Of a stretch of 25,242 nt of DNA, positions 3,859 to 25,242 are shown in pieces. How positions within the stretch are numbered: the stretch's first letter is position 1; every line of letters starts with the position of its first letter. The notes under the pieces are model-generated. The model had not been told where the DNA came from. It saw only the letters and a list, made by a program, of their open reading frames with translations, and did no database searches. Source of the DNA: a virus. The translations under genes were made by a program, and so were the position numbers. Location of the stretch: IMG/VR virus record IMGVR_UViG_3300031658_000106, positions 1 through 25,242 of that record, one strand, 5' to 3'.

Positions 3859-3935
3859 TGGCCTGCCCTGTAGGATTCGAACCTACGACCTACAGCTTAG
3901 AAGGCTGTTGTTCTATCCAACTGAACTAAGGGCAG
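3859..3935 (-). tRNA. tRNA-Arg (anticodon UCU), CCA encoded
   Basis: Folds as a full cloverleaf by eye: acceptor CTGCCCT/AGGGCAG (7 perfect pairs), D-stem GTTC/GAAC, anticodon stem ACAGC/GCTGT with loop CTTCTAA (anticodon TCT), T-arm GTAGG/CCTAC with TTCGAAT loop, discriminator G and encoded CCA. It reads AGA codons. It lies between the glycine-zipper gene (15 bp) and bS21 (13 bp) and must be cut from a shared transcript. Confidence 0.95.
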
Positions 3936-8429: not shown

Positions 8430-9635
8430 TTATGCAGCGTAGACATCATCCCACTTGCCTGTTAATCCAGCAACCTCATATTCAGTCACTTTATTCTCAA
8501 AGAAGTTGGTATGGTCTGCGCCATTCAGCACCCACTCCAACCACGGCAGAGGATTTTCTTTTACTTTGTAGTTTCCTTTGAGTCCAAGTTGAAGAAGCCT
8601 TCTGTCAGTAATGTATCTAACATACTGTTTGACTTCCTTTTCACCTAGTCCCTCAATGTCACCAAGCTTGTACGCCAAGTCAATAAACCTGTCTTCCAAC
8701 TTAACAGCGTTCCTTGCCATCTCATATATATGTCCCTTGAATTCATCGTCTACGATACGGGGGTGTTCTGCACAATATGCCTTGAATAGTTTTGCATTAC
8801 CTTCAACATGGATAGATTCATCACGAATACTCCACTCAACAACCTTACCCATACCTTTCATCTTACCATAACGCTGAAAGTTTAACAGCATTACGAATGA
8901 TGCGAACAAGGCGACACCTTCATTCATTACTGACTTTGCAAGACACAATCCAAGTCCACGAACTGTATTCGGGTCACTGTCCATCATAAATTCAATCTTG
9001 TCAGCCATCTCTGTGTATTCCAAGAAAGCATGATACTCTGCGTCTGACAATCCAAGTGTTTCATTAAGTAGTGCATATGCACGTTGATGAATACCTTCCC
9101 TAGTTGCAAAAGAACCAAGCATGTTCCGTACTTCGTTGTTCTTAAACTTAGGAATAAATTGGTCGTAGTAGTTCTGTCCTACTGCAACATCTGACTGTGT
9201 GAATAGTCTAAGGATGTTTGTGACGTATTCCTTCTCGACTGCATTAACCTTACCAGATTTCCAATCAGCAACATCTTCAGACAAGTCAAGTTCATCTTCA
9301 ATCCAATGGACTTTCTCATGTCTTGTTGTGATTTCAACTGCCCAAGGGTAGTGAAATGGTTTGTAAGCTTCTGAGAACTCCAACAACCCTCCACCTTGCT
9401 TTTTCACAAAAGTATCTGCAACTGCAATAAACTGGTCGTATGAACCAACCAACTTATCATCAATAAAGATTTGTGGTACTGATCGAGCAGTGGGGTTTAT
9501 TTTTTGATAAAATGCAAGACGTTCTTCTTCGTTGTCCATCTTAATCTCTGTGTACTCATACCCATGCGAGTCGAACCAATGTTTCGCCTTCTCACAGAAT
9601 GGACAATGTGACTTACTGTATATTTCTACTTTCAT
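8430..9635 (-). CDS. nrdB: Ribonucleotide reductase beta fused to N-terminal glutaredoxin
   Basis: A 401-aa fusion protein. Residues 1-80 are a glutaredoxin: active site CPFC at 11-14, and RSVPQIF near 51-57 as the cis-proline loop. Residues 85-401 are a class I R2 subunit with all diiron ligands visible: Asp117 (WIEDELDLS), Glu180 and His183 (REGIHQRAY), Glu239 (NEGVALF), and Glu273 and His276 (IRDESIH). The radical tyrosine is Tyr187. R2 supplies the radical to NrdA for making deoxyribonucleotides, and the fused glutaredoxin would re-reduce NrdA's cysteines without a separate partner. I place the start at MKVEIYSK (9635), where AAAGGAAAAAAGAA precedes ATG. The open frame further upstream overlaps nrdA and is not needed. 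Confidence 0.95.
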   Translation of the reverse strand: MKVEIYSKSHCPFCEKAKHWFDSHGYEYTEIKMDNEEERLAFYQKINPTARSVPQIFIDDKLVGSYDQFIAVADTFVKKQGGGLLEFSEAYKPFHYPWAVEITTRHEKVHWIEDELDLSEDVADWKSGKVNAVEKEYVTNILRLFTQSDVAVGQNYYDQFIPKFKNNEVRNMLGSFATREGIHQRAYALLNETLGLSDAEYHAFLEYTEMADKIEFMMDSDPNTVRGLGLCLAKSVMNEGVALFASFVMLLNFQRYGKMKGMGKVVEWSIRDESIHVEGNAKLFKAYCAEHPRIVDDEFKGHIYEMARNAVKLEDRFIDLAYKLGDIEGLGEKEVKQYVRYITDRRLLQLGLKGNYKVKENPLPWLEWVLNGADHTNFFENKVTEYEVAGLTGKWDDVYAA

Positions 9636-9654
9636 TTCTTTTTTCCTTTTTTGA

Positions 9655-11478
9655 TCAGCCCTGGCAGGCTGTACACTCGTCTTGTGATTCCATTGTTTGT
9701 GTTTCAAAATCTTGTAATGCATCACGCGAAACTTTCATTGATACATTTTCTGCCTTTTGTGAACTTTCTGTTCTTAGGTAGTACAGACCCTTAGTTCCTA
9801 ACTTCCATGCAGCAAAGTGACTTCTATGTAAGTCTTTCTTGTCTGCGCCTGATGGGAAGAATAGGTTTAATGATTGTCCTTGACAAAGATACTCTTGTCT
9901 ATCTGCGGCCTGTTCCACTAACACCATCTGATCAATCTCAATTGCTGTTTTGAAAACATCTTTAACCTTTTGTGACAAAAACTCAAGATGTTGGACTGAA
10001 CCACCATGAGTAATAATATCTGACCAAACTTCGTCTTGGTTCCTACCAATCCTTCTTAGTTCTTGTTCTAAGTACTTGTTCTGCACTAAGTGAGAACCAG
10101 CGCGTGTACGATGCGTATATGCATTCGCCTTTGATGGTTCAATAGATGGAGAAGTTCCTACAATGATACTAGAGTTTGCATTAGGAGCAATCGCAAGTAG
10201 ATGTGCATTACGTCTACCAGTACCTCTCATATCAGGAGCCTCACCCTTCTCTGAACCTATGTTAACAGTTTCCTTGACTGCGCTGTCTTTGATATACTGG
10301 AACACCTCACGATTCAGTTCTCTTGCTTCTAGTGAATCAAAAGGAACTCTCTTCTTATGTAAGAGTGAATGCCAACCCATTGCACCTAGTCCAAGACTAC
10401 GTTCTTGAGTTGCAGAATATCTTGCACGACTAATCTCATCACCAGCATTGTCAATAAAGAATTGCAATACATTGTCTAAGAATCGAATGAGGTCTGCAAC
10501 AAGATTTGAATCTTTCCACTCATCATATTTCTCTAAGTTAAGAGAAGATAAACAACACACGGCAGTCCTGTCTTCTGATGTAGGAAGATGTATTTCATTG
10601 CACAAGTTAGAACCATGAATCTTCAATCCCTTGGCTCTCATCGTATGCGGTAACGCACGATTAGCTGTATCAATGAAGTTAAGGTATGGTTCACCTGTAC
10701 GATAACGCACTTCCAAAATCTGTTGCCACAAACTTCTGGCAGGCATACTTTCACGAACAGTATCTTCATGTGGGTCTTTAAAGTCCCATATCTCATTTCG
10801 TTCTACTGCTCGCATGAAGTTATCTGTGATATTGATTGCATGGTGCAAATTTAAGTTCTTACGATTGACATCACCTGTAGGTACTCGCATGTTAAGGAAC
10901 TCTATCAGGTCGGGGTGTGAGACATCCATATACGCCGCGTAAGAACCTTTACGAGTTCTACCCTGTCGATATGCCGTCATATCTGCGTCTACAGTATGTA
11001 AAAACGGCATTGGGCCGGGGGCCTTGTCAGAGATGGCACGAATGTCACTCCAATGTCCACCAACACCACCACCCTTAACAGACAACCATCGTAACTCTGC
11101 TGAGTGGTCGATTAGTCCTTCAAGTGAATCAGGTACATAAGTTAAGAAACATGAGATTGGTAACGCCTTTGCTTTAGTGCCAGGCATAGGAGCGTTTGAT
11201 AATACTGGGGATGCAAACATGAAGTGACCTTTAGACACTGCATCATAGATACGTTGTGCAAGGTCTAAGTCGCCATTACAATATGCAACTGACGCCCGTG
11301 CATATGCTTGTTGGGGTGATGCTTCTTGTTCTGTACAATAATAATCTTTTAGAAGTTTATACGCTTGTTCACTTAAATCCTTATCTCTTGTTTTATCTAT
11401 TCTTATACCAAGGTGGTCATGACCATTGTCTACCTCAGTCTTTGGGAAGGGTAGTATAACTTCTGCAAGACTTTTCAT
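9655..11478 (-). CDS. nrdA: Ribonucleotide reductase alpha, no ATP cone
   Basis: A 607-aa class I catalytic subunit that reduces ribonucleotides. Redox cysteines are Cys110 (LPISCFLTY) and Cys308/309 (VCCLSSLN). The radical site is N291-L-C293-N-E295 (SNLCNEI). Tyr-Tyr of the radical path appears in GLYYLRT, and the C-terminal shuttle pair is CTAC (602-605). E. coli NrdA has about 760 residues. Here the N-terminal ATP-cone is missing and the protein begins close to the catalytic barrel. Loss of that domain normally removes inhibition by dATP, which suits a virus that floods the cell with dNTPs. GGAG lies about 10 bases upstream of ATG, and nrdB follows after 19 bp. Confidence 0.96.
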   Translation of the reverse strand: MKSLAEVILPFPKTEVDNGHDHLGIRIDKTRDKDLSEQAYKLLKDYYCTEQEASPQQAYARASVAYCNGDLDLAQRIYDAVSKGHFMFASPVLSNAPMPGTKAKALPISCFLTYVPDSLEGLIDHSAELRWLSVKGGGVGGHWSDIRAISDKAPGPMPFLHTVDADMTAYRQGRTRKGSYAAYMDVSHPDLIEFLNMRVPTGDVNRKNLNLHHAINITDNFMRAVERNEIWDFKDPHEDTVRESMPARSLWQQILEVRYRTGEPYLNFIDTANRALPHTMRAKGLKIHGSNLCNEIHLPTSEDRTAVCCLSSLNLEKYDEWKDSNLVADLIRFLDNVLQFFIDNAGDEISRARYSATQERSLGLGAMGWHSLLHKKRVPFDSLEARELNREVFQYIKDSAVKETVNIGSEKGEAPDMRGTGRRNAHLLAIAPNANSSIIVGTSPSIEPSKANAYTHRTRAGSHLVQNKYLEQELRRIGRNQDEVWSDIITHGGSVQHLEFLSQKVKDVFKTAIEIDQMVLVEQAADRQEYLCQGQSLNLFFPSGADKKDLHRSHFAAWKLGTKGLYYLRTESSQKAENVSMKVSRDALQDFETQTMESQDECTACQG

Positions 11479-13013: not shown

Positions 13014-13314
13014 TTTGCATGTTCTTTATCCGATCTTGCATTTCTACCATCTTAACTTCTTGTCGCCAAAGACGAGCTTCTAACTCATCCATCTTCTTAG
13101 TAACAGATGGATACTTCTTTCTCCAAGCATCTTCGGGTTGTCTTAACCATTTCCAGTTATATTTATCAACTAAGTAATCTACAAACTGATCTATTTTTCC
13201 GTAACACCAAATACCCATGTGGGTATCTTTGAAATATGCAAGGAATGCTGCACCAAGCAATGCGCCAATTATACTGGTATAAATCCAGAGTGTACTATCA
13301 AATATTTCCATCAT
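13000..13314 (-). CDS. Small membrane protein of the lysis-like cassette, 104 aa
   Basis: Start ATG 13314 overlaps the lipase stop (ATGA). A GTG five codons earlier has no better ribosome site. Residues 7-26 are a single hydrophobic segment (STLWIYTSIIGALLGAAFLA). They are followed by a soluble part with aromatic residues (YNWKWLRQPEDAWRKKYP) and a C-terminal coiled coil (MDELEARLWRQEVKMVEMQD). The N-terminal anchor plus cytoplasmic coiled coil could partner with the next protein, which carries its anchor at the opposite end. A holin or antiholin role is possible but unproven. Confidence 0.7.
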   Translation of the reverse strand: MMEIFDSTLWIYTSIIGALLGAAFLAYFKDTHMGIWCYGKIDQFVDYLVDKYNWKWLRQPEDAWRKKYPSVTKKMDELEARLWRQEVKMVEMQDRIKNMQNGNS

Positions 13315-14006
13315 CGTCCAAGCGTCCACTTAACATAGTTCTGTATACCATGATCTTTGATACCATCTAAGGCATCACTTCTCCAACCTCTCCACCTGTC
13401 CTTAATCATTTGCCATAATGTTAGTGTTCTTATGTTACCATAAAAATTAATGTATGTCAAGAGGCCATGGTGTTTATATCCCATTAAAAATAATGGTACT
13501 TTTGTTACAACATCATTGTTGTTCACAACTCTGTGATGTGGGGTTTTAATGTTCTTAACGAAACTCCGAGTACCAACACGGGGAGAACCAAATGTAGTTA
13601 GTAGTTCTACATCTTCCATTTCTTCAAACCTTGAACATGCAATAGTTGCCATAGCAGCACCTAATGAATGTCCAGTGATGTAGAATTTCTTTCTAGAGTG
13701 TTTACTTCTATGTGATACTAGTTGGGCGTATAACTTATTTAGTTCACCAGCAAATCCAGAATGGACTAAACCATGTGTCATGGAGAAACGGGGTATTGCA
13801 TTCAAGTCTGCTATAAGGTCAGATAGTTCATTTGGTTCTGTTCCTCTGAAACAAAGAATATACTCATTCTTATTCCATACTGCATGACATTGTGCGCCAT
13901 CTCTACTGAAGTACTTATGAGTGTACCCCATTTCTTTACACTTTACTTTTGCCTGTTTACCATCTAGGTATGCATTAGCTGCCAGTTGCGACATTAGATG
14001 TATCAT
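13311..14006 (-). CDS. Class 3 lipase-like alpha/beta hydrolase
   Basis: A 231-aa protein of the fungal lipase-like (class 3) family. The nucleophile elbow is GHSLG at 112-116 (Ser114). Asp165 (NNNDVVTKVP) and His219 (DGIKDHGIQNY) complete a likely triad. LCFRGTEP near 51-58 is the oxyanion region. There is no signal peptide. It lies between the spanins and two membrane proteins, so it is probably produced with the lysis genes and may attack membrane phospholipids once the cytoplasmic membrane opens. ATG 14006 is chosen because AAGGAG is 6 bases upstream; a GTG at 14009 is only 3 bases away. The substrate is not deducible. Confidence 0.9.
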   Translation of the reverse strand: MIHLMSQLAANAYLDGKQAKVKCKEMGYTHKYFSRDGAQCHAVWNKNEYILCFRGTEPNELSDLIADLNAIPRFSMTHGLVHSGFAGELNKLYAQLVSHRSKHSRKKFYITGHSLGAAMATIACSRFEEMEDVELLTTFGSPRVGTRSFVKNIKTPHHRVVNNNDVVTKVPLFLMGYKHHGLLTYINFYGNIRTLTLWQMIKDRWRGWRSDALDGIKDHGIQNYVKWTLGR

Positions 14007-14391
14007 CACTTTCTCCTTTAGTTGTTACTGCCTTCTCATAGTATAGAATAATCTGTTTTTGTTGTTCTATATATCGTCTTAACTCTGCAATATTTTTTGA
14101 TAAGTTCTCGTAGTCCTTTACAGATATAGCAATGTATGAATCTATTCCGTTCTTAGCTTCGAATTCTCTTTTGAATTCTTCTAAATTCTTGTCTGGTGAT
14201 ACAACATGGATAGTTATATCATTCAACTGTACTGTCTTGGGATGTGCTACAATAGGAATCTGTCTCTCAACAACCTTCGTAACAGTTACAATTTTGGGTT
14301 CTGGGATTAGTGATGAACAGCTAGTCAGCAGTACTGCTGCTGTCAGAACTAGTAATAGACACAAGGTCGTCCCATAGTTTGTCTGTCGCAT
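13975..14391 (-). CDS. Outer-membrane spanin lipoprotein (o-spanin)
   Basis: A 138-aa predicted lipoprotein. Residues 4-24 are a signal peptide ending in the lipobox L22-T-S-C25, and the mature protein would be attached at Cys25. The rest contains VVERQIPIVAHPKTVQL and a C-terminal helical stretch (NIAELRRYIEQQKQIILYYE) suited to coiled-coil contact. ATG 14391 is preceded by AGAGGA, and a TTG at 14409 is less likely. The first 71 bases overlap the i-spanin gene in another frame, as in lambda Rz/Rz1. It would bind the i-spanin across the periplasm and fuse inner and outer membranes at lysis. It is larger than most Rz1 proteins, closer to T4 PseT.2-type o-spanins. Confidence 0.82.
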   Translation of the reverse strand: MRQTNYGTTLCLLLVLTAAVLLTSCSSLIPEPKIVTVTKVVERQIPIVAHPKTVQLNDITIHVVSPDKNLEEFKREFEAKNGIDSYIAISVKDYENLSKNIAELRRYIEQQKQIILYYEKAVTTKGESDDTSNVATGS

Positions 14392-16809: not shown

Positions 16810-17220
16810 TTAAACGATTTTGGTTTTTACGAAATGTGTTCCATTAGTTATAACGTGTTCAATCTCTAAAGAAAGACCACCTTCAACTTTGTGGGAAATA
16901 CCATCATCATTGATGTCATCTCCATTTCCATCTTTACCGAATCGTCCACCATACTGCGTCATTGGCATTGATTGTTTACCTGCCTCAGACAAAGTGACAT
17001 CACCAAAAGTAAGTCCCAACTTTTCTAGTCGATCTCTTACTATATTCAAAGCGTGTTCTGGCATCAGATATTCCATCTGACCCATTGCACCTAAGAATGA
17101 ATTGATTCTATCAATTGTCTTGGGGTTAGCAATATCATTAACTCCATCATCACCAGATTTAAGGTGAGCAGCCATTTGATGGTCTTGATATGACTCATTG
17201 AACTTGCTAAAGTTTTTCAT
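16810..17220 (-). CDS. Leader-bearing protein with Asp-rich calcium-like loop
   Basis: A 136-aa protein. The N-terminus MKNFSKFNESYQ resembles the capsid-targeting leader (MK-x-[FY]-x-x-F-x-E). The centre is helical (NSFLGAMGQMEYLMPEHALN). DGNGDDINDDGISH (about 99-112) is an EF-hand-like Asp/Asn/Gly loop. The end (EIEHVITNGTHFVKTKIV) is beta-like. It overlaps the upstream gene by ATGA. A capsid-internal location is predicted only from the leader, and metal binding only from the loop. Confidence 0.65.
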   Translation of the reverse strand: MKNFSKFNESYQDHQMAAHLKSGDDGVNDIANPKTIDRINSFLGAMGQMEYLMPEHALNIVRDRLEKLGLTFGDVTLSEAGKQSMPMTQYGGRFGKDGNGDDINDDGISHKVEGGLSLEIEHVITNGTHFVKTKIV

Positions 17221-19248: not shown

Positions 19249-19256
19249 TATTTATC
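19249..19256 (-). promoter_or_regulatory. Late promoter-like box GATAAATA
   Basis: One mismatch from TATAAATA, overlapping the end of the HAD gene, with the predicted start near 19243. It leaves a leader of about 24 nt containing AAAGGAG before the 344-aa structural gene. Confidence 0.45.
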
Positions 19257-19764
19257 TAAATCCAATTCTCTTCAATTGAGAAATGGTGTTGTTGGGGGAT
19301 GTATGATGAATCCCAATACCGCCGGCGTTCTCCCATTCTTTGATATTTTTGATATAATCATCAATCAATATGTTAGGTTGATTACCAGTTGTGGCATATC
19401 TTTGCTTGTCTGCTCTCTTTACGAGATTAACTCTACCAGTAGGTTTGGCGTTTTTGGACAACCAAGCCTTCTTGCCAGGCCTACTGTTCCCATCATTACT
19501 AGAGTATGCAGATAAAATGTTTGCTTTATATTTGTTAATAAACTTCCACATCTTTTCGCTGCCGGGCATCCAAGGTAAGGTATGCCAAAAATCTTTCATA
19601 CCTCGTATGTCTTCCCAGCGCTGTTCTTTTTCAACTTTATCAAATTGTTTACCAGTAAGGTTCTTATACCCACCTAGTAAATCAACAATAACCATATCCA
19701 TGTCACAGTAAATGTCTGGCAACTCTTTTTCTGAAATTTGTGTGAGTTCCACAAGACGTTTCAT
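19252..19764 (-). CDS. HAD-family phosphatase, 5'(3')-nucleotidase-like
   Basis: A 170-aa protein. HAD motif I is at 19-25 (YCDMDMV, Asp21 nucleophile and Asp23). Motif II/Ser lies in NILSAYSSND (82-91). The Lys region is GKKAWL, and the acidic motif IV is LIDDYIKNI (Asp135/Asp136). Cap residues include WMPGSEKMW. This set fits 5'(3')-deoxyribonucleotidases, which remove phosphate from nucleoside monophosphates. It also has an 18-residue front (MKRLVELTQISEKELPDI) not needed by the fold, which resembles the capsid leader and includes I-S-E. It sits among virion genes rather than with nrdAB. The substrate is not proven. Confidence 0.85.
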   Translation of the reverse strand: MKRLVELTQISEKELPDIYCDMDMVIVDLLGGYKNLTGKQFDKVEKEQRWEDIRGMKDFWHTLPWMPGSEKMWKFINKYKANILSAYSSNDGNSRPGKKAWLSKNAKPTGRVNLVKRADKQRYATTGNQPNILIDDYIKNIKEWENAGGIGIHHTSPNNTISQLKRIGFR

Positions 19765-19766
19765 GT

Positions 19767-20411
19767 TTAATCCTTTTCTTTGACATTTACATCGACTTTA
19801 GACATTGGCTGTCCTGTCATCGTTGTTCCATCTTTATCTTCAACACATGCACCTTCATGGGCTTCTTTACCGCAATCTTCACACATGACTTTTTTCTTTC
19901 CATCAGACTTATCAGCAGCTTCGCCCCACATGGTACTGATTGCACTAGAATATCTTTGCATAATCATCGACTTCTGCATGTCATCACTACTGTAGTCAGC
20001 ATTACCTTCATCTAATGACTCTGTACCTTCAGTGTCAGCAGACTCATCTACTTGATAATCTTCTACCTTATACTTCTTGCCAGAAACTACAAAGGTCTTT
20101 TCACCCTTTTCTTTTGCAGCATTAAGTGCGCCAGTGAATGCATTACCTTCTTTTTTGGCGATTGACTTAGAGATTGCCTTACGCTTCTTGTGTAAGAACT
20201 CATCAGAACTATCAGTGTCACCATCGTTGTCGATGTCTTTGTCTTTGCGGTCATCAAACTTCTTTTTAACTGCTTTAGGTTGAACTGCGTCCAAGCCTTC
20301 ACCATCGTCAGACTTATTGTTTTTATTTGTTTCTTCCAGTGAAGCCATGCTAAGTGCGTTAGCTACAGCACTCTCAAGACTTTCTGGTTTTGTTGTGAGA
20401 TACTTAGCCAT
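19767..20411 (-). CDS. Modular virion-type protein with EF-hand loop and zinc knuckles
   Basis: A 214-aa protein. MAKYLTTKPESLESAV at the front contains S-L-E. A calcium-binding-like loop DIDNDGDTDSSD lies at 59-70, followed by KKRKAISKSIAKKEG and a module FTGALNAAKEKGEKTFVVSG. The linker EGTESLDE (128-135) is shared with the 584-aa protein. Near the end, CEDCGKEAHEGAC (177-189) has zinc-knuckle-like cysteines. These modules recur, as I recall, in shuffled order in marine T4-like phage structural proteins. A head-internal or scaffold role is likely, and its enzymatic function, if any, is unknown. Confidence 0.7.
   Translation of the reverse strand: MAKYLTTKPESLESAVANALSMASLEETNKNNKSDDGEGLDAVQPKAVKKKFDDRKDKDIDNDGDTDSSDEFLHKKRKAISKSIAKKEGNAFTGALNAAKEKGEKTFVVSGKKYKVEDYQVDESADTEGTESLDEGNADYSSDDMQKSMIMQRYSSAISTMWGEAADKSDGKKKVMCEDCGKEAHEGACVEDKDGTTMTGQPMSKVDVNVKEKD
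20008..20030. repeat. EGTESLDE-coding repeat, copy in the 214-aa gene
   Basis: DNA related to 21545-21580 and 21788-21823. It encodes the same EGTESLDE peptide on the minus strand but in a different gene. Confidence 0.75.
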
Positions 20412-20412
20412 T

Positions 20413-22167
20413 TTAATCTTCCTTATTATTTAATTTATTAAGTGTTTGTTTTGCTTTTGCAATTTGCAACTGCAACTGAGCAATACGAGTGATTTTACGA
20501 TCATCTTGATTTTGTTCAGCGTCTTCATGTTTAGCACCTTTGTTGTTAAACATACCCAGAGAAATAGTAGATTCTTCAAATTCTTCAGAACCCCATCCTT
20601 CTACGATCTTTTTCTTAGCAAAATAGTCTGCTATTGCTTGTGCAGTATTAAAAGACTTTTGTCCCTTTACACCTGTAATAGATGCGAAGAAACTATCTGA
20701 ACCACCATCAAAGTCAGCAGTTCCTATTTCCTTACCTTTGAGCATGATTTTGATATCATCACCTTTTTTGACTATCTTGTATTCTCCCTTACCAGCAAGA
20801 ACTTTTTCGTCAAGTGGCAGAGAGTGTTGTCCAGATTTCCGAACCTTCTCTGCATCCTTCATAGTCTTGTAAGGTTTGCCTACGTTTACAAACTTACCTT
20901 TAGTCATAACCTGTACTTGGAAACCTGAGTCACCGAGTTTATCAACACCTAAATTCTTACGAATTTTGTCTTGATTGCGATTACCCAAATCAATGATACG
21001 AATTGTGCCTTCTTTAGATGCTTCATCCATCTCAGAATCTTTCATTATAGAACCATCGGGCATTCTGTGATGTCCAGCTGGTACTTCATCTTTCTTAGAA
21101 TTCATTTTACCATATGATTCATTCATTGAATCCCAATAAGAGGCGACATCCTGTTCTGTACCATGTCTTTTAACGAAGTCTTTCTTTGAAATTTTGTCAT
21201 CCATACCATGAGTATATGCTTTGATAAAATCTTTCTTTGACAATTCTTTAGCAGTGCGTTTCTTATCATCTGCACGTTTGTCTTCATTAACATCATCCAC
21301 AGACTCTTTGTACATGTTTAACTCAAACGAAGTACCAGTGTTGTAAACCTGTACTTGAATGCCTTTACCATTCTTACCCTTTAATCGGTATGAGTTGGTT
21401 TTACCATTCTTTGGTTTAGCTGGGCCCATTGCAACCTTATCGTCAATTTCATTTGGGTCGATTTCGATTCCAAATTTCTTCTTTGCGTATTCATATGAAT
21501 GTTGCATAGCACCAGAGAATGTTTTGTGGTACAAGTCATACTTCTCATCTAATGATTCAGTACCTTCTTCAAATGATTCATTCTTTTGCCCTTCACTTAC
21601 TTTTCTATCAACCTGTTCCCAAATATCATTTACCTTACTAAGAAGTGCCGACATCTTCTTCATCTCTGAGTCAACCTTAACAGTTAAGTTAATAGTTTTG
21701 TTAAGAGCACTGCCTGGCTTTAAAACTTTCATTAGTGTATTTAAAGATTTGTCAGTATCCTTCCACGGAAAAGACAAAGTAACATCTTCATCTAATGATT
21801 CAGTACCCTCTTCAACTGATTCATATGTCAATCCGTCTACCAATGAATTGATTGTTTTGAAATCAAGTTTCATTATCTTTGCAATTTCTTTAGCAGACTT
21901 ACCCATCTTAATGTGGTGATGAAGTTCTTTCATCCTACCTTCTTGCATATCAACATCTTCGTTCTGTTTCTTCAGAACTGCGGCAACTTTAGGATTATCA
22001 GACAACCCACTCTTAATCTTTTCGATAGCATCAACTGCACCCGACATATTATTGCCAGCATATCGCTTATCTGAAGCGATACCAATTGCCATCTTAATTT
22101 CCTTTGCAGAGAATCCTTCACGGACTTGCTCTAGAGCCTCATTCATGCTCATACCATATCTTGTCAT
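20413..22167 (-). CDS. Modular internal virion protein with repeated LDE linkers
   Basis: A 584-aa mosaic without a known enzyme core. It begins MTRYGMSMNEALEQVREGFS. A helical module follows at 78-110 (MKELHHHIKMGKSAKEIAKI, HTH-like). The linker ESVEEGTESLDE is at 116-127, a helical module at 130-190, and a second linker ESFEEGTESLDE at 197-208. Next comes a module with YDLYHKTFSGAMQHSYEYAK, then a Lys/Asp-rich region. Two beta modules follow (RIIDLGNRNQDKIRKNLGVD, 390-409; LPLDEKVLAGKGEYKIVKKG, 450-469). The end is a Gln/Lys helix. The LDE strings match the [LI]-x-E core of T4 prohead protease sites. AGGAAAAGTAAA precedes ATG. I propose a core or cargo polyprotein, but this is inference. 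Confidence 0.7.
   Translation of the reverse strand: MTRYGMSMNEALEQVREGFSAKEIKMAIGIASDKRYAGNNMSGAVDAIEKIKSGLSDNPKVAAVLKKQNEDVDMQEGRMKELHHHIKMGKSAKEIAKIMKLDFKTINSLVDGLTYESVEEGTESLDEDVTLSFPWKDTDKSLNTLMKVLKPGSALNKTINLTVKVDSEMKKMSALLSKVNDIWEQVDRKVSEGQKNESFEEGTESLDEKYDLYHKTFSGAMQHSYEYAKKKFGIEIDPNEIDDKVAMGPAKPKNGKTNSYRLKGKNGKGIQVQVYNTGTSFELNMYKESVDDVNEDKRADDKKRTAKELSKKDFIKAYTHGMDDKISKKDFVKRHGTEQDVASYWDSMNESYGKMNSKKDEVPAGHHRMPDGSIMKDSEMDEASKEGTIRIIDLGNRNQDKIRKNLGVDKLGDSGFQVQVMTKGKFVNVGKPYKTMKDAEKVRKSGQHSLPLDEKVLAGKGEYKIVKKGDDIKIMLKGKEIGTADFDGGSDSFFASITGVKGQKSFNTAQAIADYFAKKKIVEGWGSEEFEESTISLGMFNNKGAKHEDAEQNQDDRKITRIAQLQLQIAKAKQTLNKLNNKED
21545..21580. repeat. 36-bp in-frame repeat, ESFEEGTESLDE linker
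   Basis: Differs from 21788-21823 at only about two positions across 36 bases. It encodes NESFEEGTESLDE at residues 196-208. The near-identity at DNA level argues for recent duplication or recombination. Confidence 0.85.
21788..21823. repeat. 36-bp in-frame repeat, ESVEEGTESLDE linker
   Basis: Partner of 21545-21580, 243 bp away. It encodes ESVEEGTESLDE at residues 116-127 of the 584-aa protein. Confidence 0.85.
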
Positions 22168-22196
22168 TTTACTTTTCCTATATTCATGGGTTAATT

Positions 22197-24065
22197 TTAG
22201 CCTTTCATTAAGTCTGTTACTGACTTACCAGACCAAAACTTACAAGACCAATAACCAGCGGTAGTCTTATCCTTCTTTTGATCACAATTGTGTCTAGCAC
22301 GAAATGCTTTTCTTCTTGCAGGGTCATCACGTTTTATTTCCATATTCGGATCACCAAATTCTACTTTAACGACATTTCCTTTATCGTTTCTTACATAAAC
22401 TTTGTACTTCTTAACATCACCCTTTGTTGGGTTATTTAGTTCTTTTCCACTCTTATCATCCTTTTCAGTCATTTCACCCCAAGCATTCTGAAGTTGGACT
22501 GATTCTCCCCGAACTTGTTTTGCGAGGTCGGCATCTGCCTTTCCCCAAGTTCCAGAAGATTTGGTAACAAAAGAGTTAACTCTTGCAAAGGCCCACTGTT
22601 GTGGTGTTGTGCCTGGGCGGTGTCCCGTCTTCCATGCAACCATACCCCTGTCGTATACTTTCTTGAGAATACCATATGGCATACCAGACTTTTCTGCTTT
22701 CGTAACAAGTCCTTCAATCTTCTCATCTAATTGAAACTCTTCTTTTGGTACACAGTTAGGAACAGTCTTGCCATTCTTAGTCTTTGTACCAACTTGTTTG
22801 TGAGTGTCCCAACAAGGGTCATCCTCACCAAACATCTGCTTGAACTTCTTGGTGTGCTTAGATGGTTTAGTATCTGCATCCTTATCGCCTGGCGCTGGGC
22901 CATCTTTGGATTTTGCAAAATGTGCTGCACGTTTCTTCTTAGTCGAAACAGACATCTCATCACCATCAGCATCCTTTGCATAATACTTTGCTGGTTCTGT
23001 ACCTTTTCTATCTTTAATATCTTTGTCTTGCTTTACGCCTTCGTACAACCGACTATATGTTCTTGCCAAAGTCCTTCCATCAATACCACTGAATGTTTTT
23101 GCAATCTTTGTTGCATAGTATAAAATGTCATGGGAAAGGTCGTTCTCTTTTTTCTTTCTATCAATTACTGTCTTGAGGACTTCTGCGGCCTTCTCATATC
23201 CTTTCTTCTTTGTAGTCTTTGAAATGACTTGGCGAATAAGTTCACCTGTAGACATTTCATCCAGTTCATACAACCACTTCTTATGAGTAGTTCCATCTTC
23301 TTCTGAGAAGACAAGATAATTAGTACCTCGGCGAATAATCTTACCACTCACACCACTGTATGATTCAGTAACACTATCTCCGATATTCAGTATCTCTCCA
23401 CGAATATACATATCGCGAGCAACATCTTCTTCAGTGAATGTTTCTGTTCTGGGAACAAAAGACTCACGAACTCCCATGAACTTACGAACATCTTTAAATA
23501 GAGACATTCCTTGTCCAAACCCTTTGGGAAGTCCATTCTTGAAAGAATCGTAATCATCAGATATTGCTGCGGCTCTCATCTTAGATGCAGACATACCAGA
23601 CACACCTTCTGAATCTGGGTCACGTTCACCAGCAGAGATAACTTGAATGTTTTCAAACTCGTAGTATCCGTGTCTACCTTCCATTTTGTTGTACTTCTTG
23701 AGCAATCCATCAAACTCTGATACACGATCAGAACCCACAACCATTATTACTGAGGTGTGTCCTTTGTGGTATAATGACACCGCAATCTCAAATACCTGCC
23801 TTGACTTATCAACCAAGATATTTCTAGCATGTTTTGGGAACATCTTTTTCATGTATGCGACTTTCTTCACATAGGGAAGAGGGTCTTTCTTTGCATTCTC
23901 TGAATGAGATACAAAGACATAATAAGGAGCACCAGCATTATTTGATGACTGTTTTGCAACTGCGTCCAATAACTTTTCGTGTCCTATAGTGGGCGGATTA
24001 AATCTACCGAATGTAAAAACACAAGTATCGCCACGAGCTTCCGTAATATCCTTAAAACTTCTCAT
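22197..24065 (-). CDS. Mosaic protein: nucleotidyltransferase head plus phage modules and DUF5872-like domain
   Basis: A 622-aa protein. Residues 1-9 (MRSFKDITE) are a capsid-leader-like front ending I-T-E before Ala10. Residues about 12-200 are a HIGH-type adenylyl/cytidylyltransferase: GRFNPPTIGHEKLL (20-33), VGSDRVSEF (110-118), and SGMSASKMR (156-164, ISSTxxR-like). 238-267 is a KOW-like module (GKIIRRGTNYLVF). 347-442 is a Lys/Asp-rich phage module (DIKDRKGTEPAKYYAKDADG ... CWDTHKQVG ... NCVPKEE). About 449-520 is DUF5872-like (MPYGILKKVYDRGMVAWKTG, WAFARVNSFV). The end has RHNCDQKKDK and YWSCKFW. NMN or pantetheine-phosphate transfer is plausible. LDE occurs at 268-270 and 446-448. Confidence 0.8.
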   Translation of the reverse strand: MRSFKDITEARGDTCVFTFGRFNPPTIGHEKLLDAVAKQSSNNAGAPYYVFVSHSENAKKDPLPYVKKVAYMKKMFPKHARNILVDKSRQVFEIAVSLYHKGHTSVIMVVGSDRVSEFDGLLKKYNKMEGRHGYYEFENIQVISAGERDPDSEGVSGMSASKMRAAAISDDYDSFKNGLPKGFGQGMSLFKDVRKFMGVRESFVPRTETFTEEDVARDMYIRGEILNIGDSVTESYSGVSGKIIRRGTNYLVFSEEDGTTHKKWLYELDEMSTGELIRQVISKTTKKKGYEKAAEVLKTVIDRKKKENDLSHDILYYATKIAKTFSGIDGRTLARTYSRLYEGVKQDKDIKDRKGTEPAKYYAKDADGDEMSVSTKKKRAAHFAKSKDGPAPGDKDADTKPSKHTKKFKQMFGEDDPCWDTHKQVGTKTKNGKTVPNCVPKEEFQLDEKIEGLVTKAEKSGMPYGILKKVYDRGMVAWKTGHRPGTTPQQWAFARVNSFVTKSSGTWGKADADLAKQVRGESVQLQNAWGEMTEKDDKSGKELNNPTKGDVKKYKVYVRNDKGNVVKVEFGDPNMEIKRDDPARRKAFRARHNCDQKKDKTTAGYWSCKFWSGKSVTDLMKG

Positions 24066-24457
24066 TTTGCAGTTCCCACTTCTTTAACCTTTTTCAGTCT
24101 TTCTAATTCTTTCAGTCTAAGGGAAACCATAAGCTTCTTTGCAATCTTTTTAACTGCTGCACCCTTAGTCTTCATAATCCGATTGTCAAGATTCTGTCTC
24201 TGCATTAGAGATAGATTCGCATAATCATTTGCATCCATACCAGCAAACTTTTTAATAATAAGTTGTTTTGCCGCTTTGTTCGCACGTTGTTTTATCTTAC
24301 CTTCAGGCGCTTTCTTTAATGCGTTTCTTGCCTTCTTAGCCTTAAAGGCAGAAGACTGAGCCATCTTCTTCATTCTTTGACCCATCTTACGTCTTGCCGC
24401 AACAGATAATGCCTTACGTTCAGTCAGATTTAATATTAAGTCATCAAATGTTATCAT
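24062..24457 (-). CDS. Very basic internal protein, 131 aa
   Basis: About one third of residues are Lys or Arg. Blocks include RKALSVAARRKMGQRMKKMA, KAKKARNALKKAPEGKIKQR and KIAKKLMVSLRLKELERLKK, all helical. The front (MITFDDLILNLTE) contains L-T-E before the basic body. The pattern LTERKALS...RRK...R.AARAA..KK is one I recall in T4-like marine phages beside head genes. The charge suits DNA binding inside the capsid or a core protein. It overlaps both neighbours by ATGA. Confidence 0.7.
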   Translation of the reverse strand: MITFDDLILNLTERKALSVAARRKMGQRMKKMAQSSAFKAKKARNALKKAPEGKIKQRANKAAKQLIIKKFAGMDANDYANLSLMQRQNLDNRIMKTKGAAVKKIAKKLMVSLRLKELERLKKVKEVGTAK

Positions 24458-25242
24458 TTATCCCATGCCTTGATTGCAGTAAAGTTGTTAAAACTAAACT
24501 CCATTCTGTCTACTAGTTTAACTGCATCTCCAGATACTCTATCAATTGCAACATATCCTTCTGGATTAGTAACTTTGAATCCATTTGCAGTTTTAATAAA
24601 GGTATCAGTCAATCCCTTAACACTATTTAGTTTGCTTACAACTCCCATCTTTGCGTCAACCAAGTGTCCTTGGAATGCAATGATGTTCTCTAAATTCTTG
24701 GTGTGCTTCTTTACTTCACGAAGATACTCAGTCTGAAGATTAGTGTATTTATCCTTACCCTTATCACTCTTTACTTTGTCTATTTGTTTCTGGATTGCAT
24801 CAAATACCCACTTCTCGTATCCCTTTGCATGTCCTCTAGGGTCAGTAATCTTTGCGCCTTGACGAACCTTACTATTATTGTACGTCTTTAACTGAGCACC
24901 AGCAAGTGTTCCTGAGAATACTTCTTGTAGTTTTAAGAACTTGTTCAATAATGGTGCGTTTATTTTAGCAAAGGTAGAACCAGCAGATGATAGAGATTTA
25001 GTAACGGCCGTAGTTTCACTTGCAGTCATTGTCGCCTTACCAGATACGTCCTTATAAGTTGCATCATCCATCCATACAGATGAAGGTGTAGATAGTTTAC
25101 TAATGTTTGCACCGAAGTTTGCTTTCATTGCTTGCAAGTCACTACCAGCATATGTGGTGTGCCATACGACACCAATCTTAGATGATTTGATTTTCTTACC
25201 CAAATCCGATTTAACATCAACTGCATAGACGATAGTGTTTGG
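24454..25242 (-). CDS. DUF6267-like phage protein, 5' part outside window
   Basis: The frame is open to the window edge. The TTG at 25203 is inside a longer reading frame (upstream codons give NTIVYAVDVKSDL), so the gene starts beyond 25242. The visible part has GKKIKSSKIGVVWHTTYAGS, PSSVWMDDATYKDVSG, YNNSKVRQGAKITDPRGHAK and FQGHLVDAKMGVVSKLNSVK. It ends with GYVAIDRVSGDAVKLVDRME and FSFNNFTAIKAW. I recall this as DUF6267, common in T4-like marine phages, usually next to virion genes. Its activity is unknown, and the missing N-terminal part would be needed to judge any enzyme motif. Confidence 0.8.
   Translation of the reverse strand, partial: PNTIVYAVDVKSDLGKKIKSSKIGVVWHTTYAGSDLQAMKANFGANISKLSTPSSVWMDDATYKDVSGKATMTASETTAVTKSLSSAGSTFAKINAPLLNKFLKLQEVFSGTLAGAQLKTYNNSKVRQGAKITDPRGHAKGYEKWVFDAIQKQIDKVKSDKGKDKYTNLQTEYLREVKKHTKNLENIIAFQGHLVDAKMGVVSKLNSVKGLTDTFIKTANGFKVTNPEGYVAIDRVSGDAVKLVDRMEFSFNNFTAIKAWDK

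Follow-up and report, generated by a model that had tools for sequence, protein, structure and literature searches.

In phage T4, the first ten residues of the internal head protein IPIII direct it to the prohead, with residues 4 and 7 mattering for targeting and residues 8 and 10 for cutting, and the prohead protease gp21 follows the cleavage rule L/I-x-E, with processing being blocked by an aspartate at the cut position (PMC9026906). Another kind of cargo is represented by the polyvalent proteins of phages and conjugative elements, which are multidomain, highly shuffled, and packaged or transferred with DNA, and for which the analogy to polyproteins has been drawn by the authors who described them (PMC5512222). 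The proteins described here resemble these in that one chain comprises several unrelated domains and is mosaic between phages.

The window, i.e. the whole stretch of 25,242 nucleotides that was analysed (IMG/VR virus record IMGVR_UViG_3300031658_000106), encodes mosaic proteins of 622, 584 and 214 residues on its minus strand (Table 1). An earlier note, made from the sequence alone, had read this region as a polyprotein cargo system whose modules are released by cleavage within the prohead and delivered with the DNA. The capsid-cargo part of that reading is now supported, having passed all principal indirect tests that could have contradicted it, whereas internal cutting and delivery are still inference. 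Altogether, we regard it as likely, but by no means settled, that a marine T4-like phage (Kyanoviridae), related to Melnitz and HTVC008M, here carries an island of capsid-cargo genes whose products are modular polyproteins of the prohead, separated at LxE tags by gp21, and ejected, with the cutting and the ejection being inferred.

The island, its phage and its proteins

Among isolates, Methylophilales phage Melnitz and Pelagibacter phage HTVC008M, two T4-like Kyanoviridae, are closest to the window, and the three have in common the gene order helicase, DUF6267 gene, basic protein, nucleotidyltransferase polyprotein, mosaic proteins, deoxyribonucleotidase, S-layer-like gene, primase and ribonucleotide reductase. 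The IMG/VR contig 3300027771_000023 can be assigned to the same phage, since its overlap with the window is 99.96% identical over 8249 nt and 99.3% identical over 7525 nt. The comparative set consists of about 230 related loci that were collected around the cargo island, and all counts given below refer to island loci and are not genome-wide rates. Elsewhere in the window, we noted a ribonucleotide reductase small subunit with a fused N-terminal glutaredoxin domain (8430-9725; PF00462 and PF00268), a class 3 lipase-like gene between the primase/reductase genes and the cargo island (13311-14009; PF01764, E=1.8e-21), and a tRNA gene on the minus strand (3862-3935; Rfam RF00005). The late-promoter motif WATAAATA was uninformative, with 2 matches versus 4.3 expected, one of them directly upstream of 18157.

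Table 1. Features of the candidate cargo island (window coordinates) and kinase examples from related loci. A slash marks the predicted cut.
Feature	Position	Strand	Remarks
170-aa 5'(3')-deoxyribonucleotidase-like protein	19252..19764	-	PHROG_2643 2.9e-28; possible targeting sequence MKRLVELTQISE/K
214-aa mosaic protein	19767..20411	-	KKKFDDRKDKDIDNDGD module, N2 module, C-terminal part; PHROG_22379 2.6e-16; found in relatives
EGTESLDE copy 3, aa 128-135 of 214-aa protein	20007..20030	-	
584-aa mosaic protein, candidate cargo polyprotein	20413..22167	-	modules A, B, C, D, E, F, G and C-terminal coiled helix
IVE523/G, 584-aa protein	20599..20607	-	after module G; pLDDT<50 at 521-551
LDE, aa 452-454 of 584-aa protein	20806..20814	-	between modules F and G; pLDDT<50 at 449-461
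EGTESLDE copy 2, aa 201-208 of 584-aa protein	21544..21567	-	before module D; inside pLDDT<50 segment 193-209
EGTESLDE copy 1, aa 120-127 of 584-aa protein	21787..21810	-	between modules B and C; inside pLDDT<50 segment 115-132
622-aa candidate cargo polyprotein	22197..24065	-	NMNAT/PPAT-like nucleotidyltransferase at N-terminal end; remaining modules SH3-like strand, helical, KQDK/PCW linker modules, DUF5824, DUF5754-like
LDE, aa 446-448 of 622-aa protein	22722..22730	-	before DUF5824 module; pLDDT <50 at 442-446
LYE342/G, 622-aa protein	23040..23048	-	between helical module and KQDK module; pLDDT down to 50-61
LDE, aa 268-270 of 622-aa protein	23256..23264	-	between SH3-like and helical modules; LQE, LLE, IQE in relatives
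Putative capsid-targeting sequence MRSFKDITE/A of 622-aa protein	24039..24065	-	T4-type; 9-residue form, F at position 4
131-aa basic protein	24062..24457	-	N-terminus MITFDDLILNLTE/R; relatives with canonical targeting sequence MKTFSEFINE/R
DUF6267 protein, N-terminus beyond window	24454..25242	-	PF19782 1.5e-50; relatives MMSFSEMLTE/D, MLKFSSFITE/D
Kinase examples in related loci	L065:13423-14136, L049:8152-9534, L302 and others		

The 622-aa protein matches PF01467 (1.1e-6) and PF19141 (2.3e-17) in Pfam, with a further match to PF19058 remaining below the cut-off (0.019), and cytidyltransferase in PHROG (3.7e-95). Its AlphaFold2 model has a pLDDT of 80, and the N-terminal domain retrieves PPAT and NMNAT structures in Foldseek (E about 2e-4). 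As the TxGH and SxSxxR motifs are kept in the sequence of this NMNAT-like domain, NAD or a related nucleotide may be its substrate. According to sequence and model, all five [LI]xE sites of the protein are found at module edges and none within a folded domain. The 584-aa protein, in contrast to the 622-aa protein, has no match in Pfam or PHROG, and its modules recur in other arrangements in related loci. Its AlphaFold2 model (47 sequences, pLDDT 70, pTM 0.29) consists of short folded modules joined by linkers below 50, and these predicted disordered linkers, including 115-132, 193-209, 449-461 and 521-551, contain four of the five [LI]xE sites (LDE127, LDE208, LDE454 and IVE523), with the fifth, IWE184, in a helix. 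As Foldseek found nothing below E=0.09 among solved structures with this model, the modules have to remain unnamed. The N-terminus of the 584-aa protein, MTRYGMSMNE/A, does not exactly match the targeting sequence, but a related MTRYSSTITE/A does. No peptidase domain was detected above the cut-off in the three mosaic proteins, a YgjP-like match of the 214-aa protein (0.03) being below it.

The families of the DUF6267 protein and of the basic protein have targeting sequences in relatives, and therefore the cargo island, judged from these N-termini, probably extends past the region 19767-24065 to which the earlier note had confined it. A 136-aa protein encoded at 16810-17220 begins with MKNFSKFNESYQ, and its relatives begin with MKNFSKFITE/K; in the window version, the aromatic targeting residues are kept, but an [LI]xE cut site is apparently missing.

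The starting point of the polyprotein idea was the peptide EGTESLDE, which indeed occurs three times in two adjacent genes, twice in the 584-aa protein and once in the 214-aa protein. The third copy is exactly where it had been placed, and the starts of the first two had been given one residue too late. The additional LDE sites that had been reported, one in the 584-aa protein and two in the 622-aa protein, are also present, and the [LI]xE sites MRSFKDITE/A, LYE342/G (both 622-aa protein) and IVE523/G (584-aa protein) can now be added. All six LDE tripeptides in the predicted proteins of the window (7418 aa) are in the 622-, 584- and 214-aa proteins (1420 aa), the chance of which is ~5e-5 by our own arithmetic, (1420/7418)^6. 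The near-identity of copies 1 and 2 in DNA was likewise reproduced (37 nt at 95%, 2 mismatches), and part of the repetition thus reflects a recent duplication of a linker; copy 3 matches them at 84-88% over 25 nt. A small residue after the cut had been expected, but the LDE sites of the window are followed by D, K, K, M, K and G; elsewhere in the set, G, A or S is common at this position.

Junctions, tags and targeting sequences

For the junction test, the modules of the window were searched in all ORFs of the about 230 loci, and only occurrences with unrelated distal upstream sequence were kept; as control, the same 12 upstream residues were permuted. An [LI]xE within 12 aa upstream was observed in 41 of 54 contexts of module D (shuffle mean 14.5, max 23) and in 47 of 55 contexts of the DUF5824 module (mean 17.8, max 28), and in the smaller samples of modules A, B and F in 14/21, 9/15 and 6/9 contexts (shuffles 5.6, 4.0 and 2.4). 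The preferred location is narrow, some 1 to 3 residues ahead of the module start, and the next interval upstream is almost devoid of the motif (D 3/54, DUF5824 2/55, A 1/21, B 1/15, F 1/9). The conservation at module boundaries in many relatives, which the earlier note had suggested as a check, is hence found far above shuffles in unrelated upstream contexts. Directly after the site, K is found at 55 of 120 junctions of module D and DUF5824, which is less typical of T4 sites than A. Within 162 non-redundant mosaic proteins, LDE is the top-ranked over-represented tripeptide (199 versus 33.5 expected with local composition kept), whereas in other ORFs of the same loci it is not the top tripeptide (144 versus 96 expected).

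The grammar of the targeting sequences was examined by searching the pattern M..[FY]..(0-2)[LI].E on N-termini of related loci. It was observed on 192 of 2152 distinct N-termini, as compared to 9.4 expected, and these belong to 43 unrelated mature families. Features that are not imposed by the pattern agree with T4, namely K at position 2 (24/43), Y/F at position 7 (18 of 26 ten-residue forms), and A/G/S/T after the cut (26 of the 43 families). Outside the island, a RimK-like ATP-grasp protein of Melnitz (L007:82-1131) begins with MTQKFSQFITE/E, a possible targeting sequence.

Targeting sequences and internal tags are observed at the same junction. Standalone DUF5824 genes begin with MVKFKDYITE/SEGLKNKAEKSG (an 80-aa gene), MISFKQYIEE/SKGLADKAKKSG or MNKFCQHIEE/GALADKSKKSG, and within polyproteins the same module follows QLDEK, as in FQLDEK/IEGLVTKAEKSG. 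As the module comes after a targeting sequence when alone and after an LxE tag when in a chain, the two replace each other at one junction. A broader exchange test, in which mature parts of targeted proteins were searched inside other proteins, gave 72 of 175 versus 34.9 shuffled (max 48), and is diluted by misregistered matches.

A zeta-toxin-fold P-loop kinase (PF06414, E=3e-10), which is absent from the window, occurs in relatives alone behind a targeting sequence as well as an internal module of polyproteins of up to about 1300 aa. This module provides the most powerful individual test. Its 34 distinct junctions read [LI]xE/G in 31 cases (17/20 internal, 14/14 N-terminal) against a background of 1.1% per position, the remaining three being LQA and not LxE. 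P3 is L/I in 34/34, P1 is E in 31/34 and P1' is G in 34/34, and P2 varies among 12 different residues. Such a pattern, in which L/I and E are fixed and the middle residue is free, would be expected neither from neutral hitchhiking nor from a merely acidic linker.

Could the tag be a by-product of module shuffling, resulting from an upstream stretch that travels with the module or from recombination via a shared linker, without any protease function? Shared DNA descent certainly explains part of the conservation, as the leucine codon at LDE junctions is CTT in 67% versus 24% in the background, and the long stretch in common between EGTESLDE copies 1 and 2 points in the same direction. However, the 82 LDE junctions use 11 different synonymous DNA 9-mers, indicating that the peptide is kept and not only the DNA, P3 and P1 are conserved while P2 drifts, and standalone genes do not lose the tag but replace it by a targeting sequence. 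We therefore consider a pure by-product very improbable.

It could also be that the proteins are capsid cargo indeed, but that the LDE tracts merely are flexible acidic linkers that remain uncut, resulting in one multidomain chain like unprocessed polyvalent proteins, of which the N4 virion RNA polymerase is an example that is packaged without processing (PMC5512222). The linkers are in fact acidic (consensus KEEVELDE), no cut has been observed, and no N-terminal peptide is known for any internal site, which counts against the preferred explanation and leaves cutting at these sites an inference. An uncut linker does not explain, however, that the middle residue at kinase junctions is often non-acidic with L/I and E fixed, that the enrichment of LDE exceeds local composition, and that standalone forms carry, at the very same junction, targeting sequences, which in T4 are known cut sites. 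Uncut linkers thus appear unlikely to us, though less easily dismissed than a by-product of shuffling, and separation at the tags by gp21 remains the preferred explanation.

As to the distribution of the tag, phages without gp21 served as control; Kolga, HTVC026P and CRP-901 have a DUF5754-type module without tag, but CRP-6 has a lone LEE, and these cases are too few to weigh much. In the gp21-bearing Flavobacterium phage immuto (L247:2704-3261), which is outside the Kyanoviridae, DELDE/GEYRGKDV precedes a DUF5754-type module, and the tag may therefore reach beyond this family.

Protease, virion data and a possible mechanism

Among its refuting conditions, the earlier note had named absence of the proteins from virions and of any gp21-type protease in the genome, and as far as the protease is concerned it is not refuted. 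The 25-kb fragment that constitutes the record of the window has no gp21, but the same-phage contig 3300027771_000023 encodes gp21 (PF03420, E=4e-33) together with gp22, portal and capsid protein. The N-terminal region of this capsid protein contains GAFLSE/AAPANN, and capsid proteins of relatives have SAFLSE/AAP (Melnitz) and AFLGE/I (HTVC008M). We take GAFLSE/AAPANN to correspond to LTE/A, the site at which T4 gp23 is cut. An [L/I]-x-E specificity of the protease in this clade is supported by these sequences alone, no cut having been observed.

Virion data exist for cyanophages with related islands. The record of S-SCSM1, whose paper reports virion mass spectrometry, assigns ORFs 89, 90, 91 (NMNAT), 92, 93, 95 and 97 from the syntenic island to the virion proteins (PMC9602691); ORF91 starts with MKSFLQFLKE/AAES, and ORF92 is a mosaic protein with EEVELDE/R. 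ORF154 (MKNFSSFLTE/ADEK), 155, 156 and 160 of S-CREM2 (PMC10665884) and S-SZBM1_139 and _140 (PMC9146016) were likewise detected in virions by mass spectrometry. Virions of three cyanophages thus contain homologues of the 622-aa enzyme together with mosaic proteins encoded next to it, a result that refers to these relatives and from which presence in virions of the window's own phage would follow only by homology. As the versions of relatives are inside virus particles, the window proteins probably are bundles of small proteins, which would be separated inside the head and enter the host along with the DNA.

In principle, mosaic proteins could instead be components of the scaffold or core, like T4 gp67 and gp68, that gp21 cuts into expelled peptides and that are no delivered effectors. 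In T4, the core proteins are degraded to fragments that for the most part leave the head (PMC9026906), and gp22 of the phages studied here is dense in LxE. Against such a role, the modules are folded domains, including the NMNAT-like enzyme with its signature motifs and the zeta-toxin-fold kinase, the folded modules of the 622-aa protein are free of [LI]xE, and the homologues remain in mature virions, so that we give a scaffold function very little credence.

The preferred explanation, modular prohead cargo, would work as follows. The cargo proteins would be made as strings of small modules. At the N-terminus of the chain, a capsid-targeting sequence (M-x-x-[F/Y]...[L/I]-x-E) would direct it to the prohead's scaffold core, in the manner of the T4 internal proteins; this step is inferred from the T4-register sequences and the virion data of relatives. 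The gp21-type prohead protease would then cut after [L/I]-x-E, thereby removing the targeting sequence and parting the modules at LDE tags, which is inferred from the conservation of the sites and from the protease and capsid site in the same phage. The freed enzyme and binding modules would stay in the head, a retention that is supported by the virion data of relatives, and from T4 precedent it is inferred that they may be ejected with the DNA and act in the host. Their function there is likewise inferred, with a role in NAD/nucleotide metabolism being suggested for the NMNAT-like enzyme. That interchangeable effector cassettes of marine T4-like phages each follow a universal gp21 cut tag behind one targeting sequence, and are packaged, cut and injected as a set of separate small proteins, appears reasonably probable to us.

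Comparison with known systems

We found no prior description of polyprotein cargo or of targeting sequences in marine phages in the open-licence literature. If the mechanism is true, [L/I]-x-E junctions and M-x-x-F targeting sequences constitute a readable code for finding injected proteins in abundant ocean viruses, most of whose genes of this kind have no known function. The exact mature termini of many hypothetical proteins would become predictable, the free shuffling of modules would be explained, and N-terminal proteomics could directly test which cargo is carried in the virions of SAR11, OM43 and cyanobacterial phages.

The nearest enzyme homologue is the cyanophage virion NMNAT/cytidylyltransferase, which corresponds to the enzyme domain of the 622-aa protein and for which the authors already proposed that it may enter the host (PMC9602691, PMC10665884, PMC9146016); the passages considered here do not mention a targeting sequence, a polyprotein or LxE junctions. 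The Dar proteins of P1 have an N-terminal sequence that targets cargo into the capsid (PMC9024508), but they are not modular strings with repeated cut tags. The ejected inner-head proteins of the giant phages phiKZ and SPN3US are cut after x-x-E by a gp21-like protease (PMC5694885), but have long N-terminal propeptides and an [S/A/G]-x-E or A-x-E specificity, and modular cassettes are not described. For the polyvalent proteins, release by peptidase domains within the chain has been proposed, such domains being common though not universal, whereas the tags described here fit a separate prohead protease. Closest are the T4 internal head proteins (IPI-III, Alt; PMC9026906), with which the cargo shares the N-terminal targeting grammar (aromatic residues at 4 and 7, L/I-x-E cut site), the protease family (gp21) and the type of predicted capsid-protein cut (LSE/A here, LTE/A in T4). 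Homologues of the cargo in relatives have been detected in virions. The main difference is that the T4 proteins are single proteins that lose an end peptide, whereas here modules are strung together with cut tags and shuffled between genes. On the basis of sequence and published virion data, it is supported that the cargo system is a variant of the T4 internal-protein/gp21 system that has been made modular.
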